Shown here: piece after piece, positions 46,201-62,656 of the stretch
How the letters are laid out: the number at the start of each line of letters is the position of its first letter
Numbering within the stretch: position 1 is the first letter of the stretch
Source: Utricularia gibba
Taxonomy: Eukaryota; Streptophyta; Magnoliopsida; Lamiales; Lentibulariaceae
Direction: 5' to 3'
Assembly (NCBI GenBank): GCA_002189035.1
Contig: NEEC01000002.1
Coordinates: 5,913,001-5,977,000 of the forward strand
DNA length: 64,000 nt
The notes under the pieces: model-generated
Told to the model about the DNA's origin: nothing
What the model saw: the letters and a program-made list of their open reading frames with translations, nothing else
The model's database searches: none
Made by a program: the position numbers and the translations under genes

Positions 46201-48197
46201 AAAGGTTGAAATTACCTAATAATTCGTTTGCAGCTTGATAGCAATTGGATATCTCCGGGTACGATATTTTGGAAATACGAAACAGTGGCCCTGTAAGAGT
46301 GGCAAGAAAAGCTTGTCATCACTACACCCTATGAAATTTTCTCCAGAGAAAAATGACCGTTTCCATGTTAAAAAAAGGTATTTTTTAAAATACAAAATGT
46401 TGGTTCTGGAAATGAATTTGGAATAGAAATGAGCAGCATATGTCAATGAAATTCATAGATCATCCACAAAAATCCAAGCAACAATGTTACTCGGATAATA
46501 GGGGCAAGTCAAACCTTTGCGCATTAGCAACCTTGCAAAAAGTCTCTGGCTATCATCTGAGAGTGAGTCAAATGCTTCTGGGATGAGGAAACACGTGCAT
46601 CATATCAGAAACTTCGGATATCCATTTAACAAATAAAAAGGAGAAGTTAGAACACAATACGTAGGAAAGAAATCTCCTTGACACTGAACAAGTGAGAGTG
46701 GCTCATTAAAACTTCTTGTATTAGCACTCTCAAATTGTTCTGATATTTTGTCATTCTAGAGAGCTTAGTGTACCACAGAACATTTTTCCACAATGACATG
46801 AACTCCTCGATGTCAGAGACAAATGAATCACAAAGCTCGAAATTTTTACATGCAATCTTAATAGGTACAGCTCCAACTGGGTCCTTTGGCAAGGAAACAA
46901 TATGACCCTGCAATTATTTATATCACTTGAAACCTTTTCTCAAGAAATACCTCAATCCAAATGAAGTGTATATATTAAGAGCAAAATAATCAAAAATAAA
47001 TTTACCTCAAATGTCAAATGAAACTTGTCAATTAAAGGTGATAGATATTGGGACAACTCACGTGGCACATACCCCAGCGTACTATCAGATTCATGATTGG
47101 CATAATGCACCTGGTTAATGGGCATCAACCATTTGATCAAGTAACCCAAAAAAAAAAAAAACAGTACAAAAAGATGACAGAAAGAAACCTTAATAGCATT
47201 CTGATCAATTGAATTCTCAGGATCTCTACATAGGCATATCCTCAGCCTAGAATCCAAGTCATTTCTGCTACAATATCTACGACCAACAATGATTGTTGGA
47301 ATAACAATCTTAGAAACATCATAATCATTCAACAATTCCTCCTCACAAATGGGTTCATCAATTTCTGTCCCCGCTTGTTGTGCCAGAAGCCTATTCTCTA
47401 TGCCTGCAACAGAATTTTTAAAGGAACTAGAAGCAGCGTGATCTTCCCACGAAATGGTACTATGGATATTCTTATGCTGGTCGAAAGGACCAGAAAACTT
47501 GAACGATGAAGAGCTGATACAGTTGCTCTGAATTGAAATGACGTTGCTTCCACATAGTTCTGGCTCCTCGTCCTGAACTTTACATTTGGGACCGGAGAAA
47601 TGAAGAAGAGTAAGCTGCCTTAATTTCCGTTTCTTGCCCTTAGCAAGGCACTCATCTGAAACAATACAATACATGTATAAATTCATTTTACGGACATTCG
47701 GTGGTAATCCAATTCATGTTGAATCCAAATAGACGGACATATTTCAAAGACTGGTGTCATTGAATAGCTTCTCATGATCAAGTGCTTAAAGGCCAAAAAT
47801 TGTACATAATGAACATCACCCAGATCAGCAAAAGCCCCACAATCATCATTATCCACTACCTAAATGAGAATTGATGAGTCTATCATCCAATCCTGGGATT
47901 TGTGTTTGACAGACAGGACAAATGACCAAATCTGTGCCAGAATCAGCGCTACAAAAAACCCCTTTCTCCTCCAGAAATCTTCCCACATTCCCTTCAACCT
48001 GCAAAAGAAAAAACAAATTAATAATGAACACAAAAAAAGAAAAAGAGGAGAAGAACAATATAAATAGCTCATACGGTCGAGGAGTGAAAGGGTGTCCCAG
48101 CGGAGGAAGATGGAGAAGCAAGAATCGCGTTGCGGTTCGGAAGGAAACGACGTGGTTTCCCGATTACCCTCTCCAGGCTCCGACGGCCAGCGAGCAT
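43277..48197 (-). CDS. FAN1: Fanconi-associated nuclease 1 homologue (FAN1)
   Basis: Structure-specific nuclease for interstrand cross-link repair. Fifteen exons: 48075-48197, 47860-47998, 47189-47655, 47006-47110, 46661-46907, 46515-46577, 46216-46290, 46020-46129, 45441-45511, 45274-45361, 44905-45045, 44613-44836, 44225-44498, 43922-44155, 43277-43726; 936 residues. In order: basic leader (GKPRRFLPNRN), UBZ4 zinc finger (CPVCQTQIPGLDDRLINSHLDEC across a splice junction), HIRAN domain (VGRRYCSRNDLDSRL to LGYVPRELSQYL), a SAP-like region, TPR-like repeats (ERLFFLNGEQDLS-type block, WALRLSVDLEHIG), and the VRR-NUC domain. The nuclease carries GEDGEQCGVEQLAL, the GMPDLLLW Asp and the LVEVKGPRDRLS ExK pair. 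The splice acceptor of exon 10 is ambiguous (45361 or 45346); both keep frame. Confidence 0.92.
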
Positions 48198-48768: not shown

Positions 48769-48778
48769 AGTGTCGTCA
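48769..48778. repeat. Left copy of 10-bp target-site duplication
   Basis: AGTGTCGTCA, identical to 49931-49940 and abutting the foldback element. Confidence 0.8.
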
Positions 48779-49930
48779 GAGTTAATTAGCTATTTAGCCC
48801 TCTTCAAAAAAACTCTTTGCTAAATGGCTTTATTTGGTAGACTTTAGCTAAATTGCCCTACTTTATGTAGGTATTAGGTAAATAGTTTTACTTTTATCAT
48901 AAATAAAAAAATAATATAATTATTATTTACGAAAAATACAATATATATGTATATATAATTTTATATTAATTATTATTTTGATTTTATATTTTTATTTCTA
49001 TTTAAATTAGATATATTTAATTATTTAATTTTAAAAATATAACATAAGTATCAATATTTATATTTAATAGTTATATTAAAAATTTTTTCATAATAAATTA
49101 ATATAAAAAATACATGAAAATATTTATACAAAATTATTATAGTAAATGCTTTTAAATTAATTTATTTAACCCAAAAATATGTTAAGGTACATCACCTAAT
49201 GATATAATTAATATACAATAATATTTTTCAATTTTTTTTAAAAAAAATTAAATATGAAAAATTTATTAATCAATATTTTTATCTATTTAGTATATTATTC
49301 GATCTTATACCTAATTTATTAAGATTTGATTAATAGATTTTCACATTTAGTTTTTTTAAAAAAATTAGAAATATTATTATGTATTAATTATATTATTAGA
49401 CGATATATCAAAACATATTTTTGGATTAAATAAATTCAATTGAAACATTTGATATAATGATTTTTTATAAATATTTCCATTCTTTTTGAAATATTAATGG
49501 AACTATGAATACTAATAAAACCAATACTATCACGAAATTACCTAAAAGTTTCAGTGAATTATAACAACAATTAATATCACGAAAAAGTTTCATTAAATTA
49601 TGAAAACATTTTTAGGATAATTACAAAATATTCATATTGATATATATGTTATATTTTTACAATTAAATAATTAAATATATATAATTTTAGTAGAAATAAA
49701 AATATAAAATCAAAATATTAATTATAAAAATTATATATATACACATGTAATATATAGTTAATTTTATTTTATTATTTTTCGTAATAATAATTATTTTATT
49801 CTTTGTTTATGATAAAAATAGGACTATTTACTTAATACCTACATAAAGTAGGGCCATTTAACTAATGTCTAACAAATAGTACCATTTAACCAAGAATTTT
49901 TTTGCAGAGTGCTAGATATCCAATTCACCA
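48779..49930. mobile_element. 1.15-kb foldback element, probable non-autonomous Mutator-like (MULE) MITE
   Basis: Nearly the whole element is one imperfect palindrome. The left arm (48779 to about 49280) pairs with the right arm (about 49315 to 49930). A 22-nt stretch at 48855-48876 (GCCCTACTTTATGTAGGTAT...) is exactly inverted at 49833-49854. An inner pair is CCAAAAATATGTT at 49171-49183 with its complement at 49412-49424. The ends carry AGCCCTCTTCAAAAAAA / TTTTTTTGCAGAGTGCT-type inverted termini. A perfect 10-bp direct repeat AGTGTCGTCA lies just outside at 48769-48778 and 49931-49940. Long TIRs and a 9-11 bp target duplication are hallmarks of the Mutator superfamily. No transposase frame is present. 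Confidence 0.85.
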
Positions 49931-49940
49931 AGTGTCGTCA
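49931..49940. repeat. Right copy of 10-bp target-site duplication
   Basis: AGTGTCGTCA, identical to 48769-48778. Confidence 0.8.
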
Positions 49941-60987: not shown

Positions 60988-62656
60988 AATTTCGAATTGT
61001 ACTTGAACATGTTCTGAACGAACCCTAATCCCAATTTTGCTCACGGACCACTAAACCCACCGTTTCCTGATCAAACCCCATACGTAACTCTTCGTTCGCC
61101 GCCGCCGCTGTCTCCACGCTGCAAAACTCCGGTAACGGTGACTACAATTAAAGAACATCAAATTTTGAAAACACAAATTCGAAGTAAATGTAGGCGCATC
61201 TGAATGCATCGGCCAAATCAAATAGAAGGGGATGCCAGAATCTCAGCGCCAGAATTCCGATATCGGCAACGTTCAGCGCTGTGTGCACAATTAAATGTGC
61301 AACAGTGACTCTAATTTGTTGCCTTGAAACAAATAGATCGATTCAAAATCAAAGGCTCAGATACGAAGGATTTAGTCAAATCAACGAGCCGTAATGCAGG
61401 CTCTCATCGTTTGATGGTATAGTTTATGTAACTTCATCGCCAAAAGCAAAAACAAATCAAATCATGAAAAAAAGAGTGATCGAATCGCGGACACAGGGAG
61501 ACCTCAGAAGGTAAATTTTGAAACATCACCAAAAACCTCTGGAAGAGATCAATGCTCAGATGGTACGGACAATTCAGATAGCATCACCGGCATCCCTCCG
61601 CCGACACATAGATTTGAAGGACGGTATGTTCTAGTAACAACATTTTGGGGTGTGTCTAGAGATGGAGGCGCTACTGGTCAGATATAAAAAGAAACAGACG
61701 GAAACCCTACTAGATGATTTGGTCTACAAATTACTGGAATGCCCTCAGTGGGGGTTTACCGGGCCACGGGCTGGATACTGGGCCAACTCAGATCGCGGGG
61801 CGTTGTGGACTGGCCCCAATGATAAGTTACTGAGAGCCCAAAACTCCATATGAGCCCACTTTCAGATTTGAATGAATTTTTATAATTTATTTAAATAATT
61901 ATGTTCACTTTTTAAAAATTTAATCTTTAACGATTTTGTAATAAAATTAAAAGTTCAAATTCTATAATTAACTTTAAAAATTATTAATTTTTTTAATTTC
62001 TATTTCAATAATTATATAAGATATTAATTATATTATTTATTATTTTATATTTTTAAAAATATATTTATAATATAATATAATATTATATAATAATTTAATA
62101 TATTAAAATATATAATATATATTTTATTTTATTAAATTTTATAAAATAATTTTATGTTGGTCTATAAAATAATTTACAATTTTAAAATGAACTTATTCAA
62201 ATAATCTTAAAATTAATTATATTTTAAAAAATATGAATACAATTTCAAATTATAGAATAATTTTTTAATTTTTAATTAATTCTAAATTAGATAGGAAAGA
62301 ATTTTAATTAATAAATTGCTATAAACATTTTAAAATATTAAATTTAAGTAATTATTTTATTTCTTATAAAAATACTAAAATGTGATTTTTTTTTGTTGTT
62401 CATTACTCATTGTATTATGATAAAAATTGACAAAAAAACCTGACTTAGCCAACCCAACAAAATGTAATCTTGATTTTGTAAGTGTGGCTTATGGGGTGTG
62501 TGTGTGCCTGAGAATCATCGAGTTATCTTCAACGCCACCCTCTTGACGATAAGAGACGACACTCTGCTGCCCACAGATCCTCATCATCACTCCATTTCGA
62601 TTATCCCTCTCGTTCCTCGATCAATCTCACTCGTTTCCCACAAATAATCTGAAGGA
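60988..62656. other. Intergenic
   Basis: OCT 3' region, a mixed-composition stretch at 61030-61860, then an AT-rich repeat (61900-62290) and the PGK promoter and leader. On the minus strand 61148-61342 is open for 64 codons with a hydrophobic stretch (VTVAHLIVHTALNVADIGIL) but has no start codon and is not recognised. Confidence 0.55.
61900..62290. repeat. AT-rich dispersed repeat, copy 2
   Basis: Similar in order of motifs to 57540-57910. Noncoding, boundaries not defined. Confidence 0.4.

Follow-up and report, generated by a model that had tools for sequence, protein, structure and literature searches.

The locus raises the question of what a palindrome of more than 1 kb is doing between two plant genes: what kind of sequence it is, how it came to be there, and whether it acts on its neighbors. 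It lies in the window, i.e. the whole 64-kb stretch of Utricularia gibba DNA analyzed here. The initial annotation had read it as a non-autonomous Mutator-like element (MULE) of the foldback type, possibly silencing in cis. As to its identity, we consider it highly probable that the element is indeed a non-autonomous MULE foldback. This assignment is carried by sharp ends common to several copies, an exact 10-bp target duplication and termini homologous to those of a relative with a MULE transposase domain; other copies with 10-bp duplications of their own, and empty sites for one of the relatives, bear it out.

Genomic setting and limits of the element

The gene on the left, with its ATG at 48197 on the minus strand, is one that we take to be FAN1 from its N-terminal sequence and from the HIRAN and VRR-NUC domains of its product. 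The left duplication is situated 572 bp upstream of this ATG. On the right, the coding sequence of an LRR receptor kinase (LRR-RLK), likewise on the minus strand, ends at about 50439, with the element about 0.5 kb past its stop codon. Both distances had been given correctly. Further along the window, two C/D-box snoRNA genes, snoR116 and snoR117, are found on the minus strand at 61353-61442 and 61499-61592, 56 bases apart.

The span 48769-49940, as originally delimited, proved right, but includes both copies of the duplication AGTGTCGTCA, which occupy 48769-48778 and 49931-49940 and match exactly, without strand assignment. The element proper is the 1152 bp at 48779-49930 (plus strand), with ends common to the five further full-length copies L002-L006. 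Identical 10-mers did not occur in any of 200,000 random pairs drawn from nearby DNA. Within these limits the GC content is 15.6%, as compared to 40-45% in the flanks, and no coding sequence is present.

The left arm (48779-49350, plus strand) and the right arm (49351-49930, minus strand) were delimited from self-inverted repeats and the predicted hairpin, their inner limits being approximate. Self-comparison gave four inverted arm pairs, namely 48781-48910/49799-49928 (83% identity), 48936-49094/49597-49755 (84%), 49107-49176/49418-49487 (70%) and 49150-49244/49351-49445 (81%). When the whole of 48779-49930 was aligned with its own reverse complement, the identity was 70% over 1148 bases, at a score of 712 against 76 +/- 16 (maximum 136) in 40 dinucleotide shuffles. 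The near-complete palindrome of the initial annotation is thus real, albeit imperfect, and the 22-nt exact inverted match that it had placed at 48855-48876 and 49833-49854 was recovered at those positions. The arms take up nearly all of the 1152 bp, leaving little unique interior.

The outer approximately 130 bp of the left terminal inverted repeat (TIR; 48779-48910, plus strand) are conserved in alignment with the transposase-bearing relative, L061, and begin with GAGTTAATT, which is close to GAGATAATT of maize Mu. Their counterpart on the right (49799-49930, minus strand) was defined by alignments with both the full-length copies and L061; its final base is A in the window element and C in the other five full-length copies. 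No other matches to the terminal repeats were found elsewhere in the 64-kb window. Subterminally, the left arm contains three units of about 28-30 bp each (GCTAAATGGCTT, GCTAAATTGCCC and GGTAAATAGTTT; 48817-48890, plus strand), and the right arm three matching units of the same direct-repeat family (49816-49893, minus strand), all built around G.TAAATGGCCC. Compared to the other copies, L004 has one additional 28-bp unit in its right arm (L004:2549-2708), while the terminal alignment showed that L008 has lost part of the units. As Mutator terminal repeats carry transposase-binding sites (PMC3310237), the units are possible candidates for such sites.

Copies elsewhere in the genome

The search for other copies that had been proposed as a check, carried out within the same genome, yielded at least five further near-full-length copies, 86-88% identical to the window element and distributed over five other contigs. 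They begin and end at the very bases at which the window element does, and their flanks differ; the window element is thus a mobile element. Four of the five have a 10-bp duplication of their own, exact at L002 and L004 (TTCAGGTGAC and GTGCGGCCCT, respectively) and matching at 9 of 10 positions at L005 and L006; flank comparison revealed no clear duplication at L003. All copy numbers are lower bounds, and the six near-full-length copies, including the window element, are accompanied by more diverged relatives. One of these, L007, is flanked by AGAGAAAAAT/AAAGAAAAAT (9 of 10), and its joined flanks match two paralogous places without the element (84% and 79%), each with one copy of the target. 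These empty sites are a direct sign of insertion with a duplication of about 10 bp. The joined flanks of the window insertion match only themselves in the assembly, and those of L005 likewise gave no empty site there. For L006, a paralogous stretch on contig C213 was rejected as an empty site; the element is absent from it, but so are about 70 bp around the target.

The left end of L003 directly adjoins 37 bp (L003:1464-1500) that match the L061 terminus at 95% identity; this points to nesting or to a terminal repeat in tandem, and L003 probably sits in or beside the end of another element. A 132-aa ORF whose product gave no Pfam match has its stop codon 34 bp before L002 (L002:1464-1501), and this insertion may therefore be within a transcribed 3' UTR.

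In the six-copy alignment, most differences between copies are scattered substitutions and indels. K2P distances are 2-5% among L002-L005 and 9-10% between the window element and the others; by this measure the window insertion belongs to an older layer, and the four copies are young. In a tree of the separate arms, the six right arms grouped together (97/92), apart from the left arms, which formed a weaker group (87/87). The arm labels of L007 and L008 are reversed in this tree, as the matches of both to the element are on the minus strand. Since each arm clusters with its counterparts in the other copies, the two arms diverged before the family spread. On the tree, then, the palindrome is older than the spread, moved as a unit and was inherited by all copies.

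Relatives with transposase sequences

The relative L061 (L061:994-6350, 5357 bp) lies on the same contig as the window element, about 0.87 Mb away. Its TIRs are 74-76% identical to those of the window element over about 270 bp, and the terminal alignment shows common blocks in the order GRGTTAATTGG, CTAGCCCTCTGCAAAAAA and TTTATGTAGGTATTAG. It is flanked by a 10-bp duplication, GAATGTAAAA/GGATGTAAAA, matching at 9 of 10 positions; its minus strand encodes, in a frame broken by stops, a MULE transposase domain (PF10551, E 1.3e-10). The homologous termini together with PF10551 therefore support placement in the Mutator superfamily independently of the duplication length. Related transposase DNA was also found near a similar terminus at L071, L072 and L062; the read-through translation of L071 had no Pfam match. 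At L070:2046-6614 there is a further relative, of 4.5 kb, whose outer termini differ; it has a 10-bp duplication matching at 9 of 10 positions, and the product of its transposase DNA shares 70% identity with the L061 fragment.

The MULE transposase domain matches at least 150 places genome-wide, several of them in open frames of at least 500 aa. The autonomous, MURA-bearing parent that had been proposed as a search target did not emerge: the own-genome search revealed no intact partner with closely matching ends, and L061 itself is decayed.

Duplications of 9-11 bp and TIRs of 100-500 bp are recognized marks of MULEs (PMC3310237). Those of the present family are 10 bp, exact at the window element, L002 and L004 and 9 of 10 at L005, L006 and L007; the arms extend across nearly the whole 1152 bp, and the termini are shared with L061, whose transposase is broken. 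In keeping with a foldback, the arms make up most of the element, a single hairpin is predicted and the self-complementarity exceeds that of the shuffles. Judged as a MITE, the element has at least six near-full-length copies plus diverged relatives, and its 1152 bp stand against the limit of about 800 bp set by some authors. Counting against the MULE foldback assignment are the stop-broken transposase and only about 75% identical TIRs of L061, the lack of a clear duplication at L003, and the lack of an empty site for the window insertion.

Predicted hairpin and paired changes

Folding of the element as RNA, another check suggested at the outset, gave a single predicted hairpin for its entire length, at -388 kcal/mol for one strand and -390 kcal/mol for the other, and a hairpin was likewise predicted for both strands of all six full-length copies. 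The longest uninterrupted predicted duplex, 36 bp with G-U pairs allowed, joins 48855-48890 to 49819-49854 (both given on the plus strand) and encloses the 22-nt exact match. Counted on the predicted structure, 94.6% of the cells were paired across the six copies. Pairs changed on both sides numbered nine, as compared to 5.4 in shuffles (21 of 500) and 1-3 in slid controls; seven of the nine fall within the outer 163 alignment columns, i.e. in the outer terminal repeats. Related sequences without structure can exceed such shuffled values, and we therefore do not propose a conserved RNA. Arm-to-arm conversion, or selection for alike termini, explains the paired changes equally well as an RNA role. 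A search against Rfam found no family within the element.

Alternative explanations and proposed mechanism

That the palindrome is an immobile local inverted duplication of AT-rich intergenic DNA, flanked by a repeat through chance, can practically be dismissed: a GC content of 16% does inflate self-complementarity, but the observed score is far beyond the dinucleotide shuffles, and the idea is refuted by the dispersed copies, which share their end points but not their flanks. Long-arm palindromes are known in several transposon groups, and the element could accordingly be a foldback of another superfamily that resembles a MULE, such as hAT, with its 8-bp duplications, or the Drosophila-type FB. 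We find this very improbable, since 10-bp duplications recur from copy to copy and the PF10551-bearing L061 has homologous termini. A conserved non-coding RNA gene of the miRNA type, kept for its hairpin structure, would account for the long, stable predicted hairpin and for the slight excess of paired changes. It is just as improbable, considering that Rfam has no family within the element, that signs of selection are absent beyond the terminal repeats, and that the copies vary by scattered substitutions and indels.

A different matter is whether the element now serves as a cis-regulatory small-RNA locus, where dicing of the hairpin transcript would yield 24-nt siRNAs that cause methylation of the element and turn down FAN1 or act on the 3' end of the LRR-RLK gene. 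Such a role is compatible with a MULE foldback, to which it would add a function; small-RNA output and cis-silencing are plausible, and we hold the role to be a tentative possibility, somewhat on the unlikely side. It is favored by the full-length hairpin predicted on both strands in six of six copies, by the proximity to the FAN1 ATG, and by the shared minus-strand orientation of the two neighbors, through which read-through from the LRR-RLK gene would transcribe the element. Precedents exist, as gene-proximal MuDR inverted repeats in Arabidopsis often yield 24-nt siRNAs (PMC12595863), and a hairpin produced by read-through has been proposed for maize Mu killer (PMC3440606). Against it, compensatory changes are just slightly above the shuffled level, and most of them lie in the outer terminal repeats, where gene conversion or selection on the termini gives the same result. 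A combined account, in which conversion, or selection for transposase binding, kept the outer repeats of an old asymmetric MULE palindrome matched between the arms while the element also supplied an siRNA hairpin tuning FAN1, seems improbable.

For the preferred MULE foldback, we envisage that a larger relative supplied a MULE transposase, which bound the outer approximately 130-bp terminal repeats in trans, possibly through contacts with the 28-30-bp units, and that insertion, through a staggered cut of 10 bp, took place early enough for the 9-10% divergence from the other copies to arise. The present effect of the element at the FAN1/LRR-RLK locus would most likely be passive. If transcription from the LRR-RLK or another promoter were to cross it, a long hairpin RNA would result, which could feed the production of 24-nt siRNAs.

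Comparison with known systems

The family adds a well-delimited foldback MULE, with copies of different ages and a transposase-bearing relative, to a plant genome, and the window element is an ordinary, well-supported example of a known transposon type. With the long-TIR MULEs of plants, e.g. maize Mu/MuDR and the tomato and Arabidopsis families (PMC3310237), it shares long TIRs, a 10-bp duplication within the 9-11 bp range and a relative with ends of this type that carries a MULE transposase; unlike in these, the arms fill almost the entire element. The root-knot nematode Mutator/Foldback Tm1 (PMC3169594) is similar in its foldback architecture, its internally repetitive terminal repeats and its combination of non-autonomous copies with a transposase-bearing member. 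Tm1, compared here by description only, differs in having 9-bp duplications and units of 13-15 bp, instead of 10 bp and about 28-30 bp.

Of 885 Arabidopsis inverted repeats, 634 have a gene within 3 kb, about 68% are derived from transposable elements, notably MuDR MITEs, and about 486 give rise to 24-nt siRNAs (reviewed in PMC12595863). The window element resembles the gene-near MuDR MITEs and inverted repeats in being non-coding, palindromic, Mutator-derived and close to genes, but exceeds the approximately 800 bp that some authors set for MITEs, a size on which there is no agreed limit (PMC12595863). Should small RNAs prove to map to this copy in front of FAN1, it would join the MuDR inverted repeats that act on a nearby gene; such an effect would touch a DNA-repair nuclease gene and belong to a class already described. 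Maize Mu killer (PMC3440606) is likewise a long Mutator-related inverted repeat beside a gene from which it could be read through, but it is a duplicated transposase gene silencing MuDR in trans, whereas the window element carries no coding sequence.
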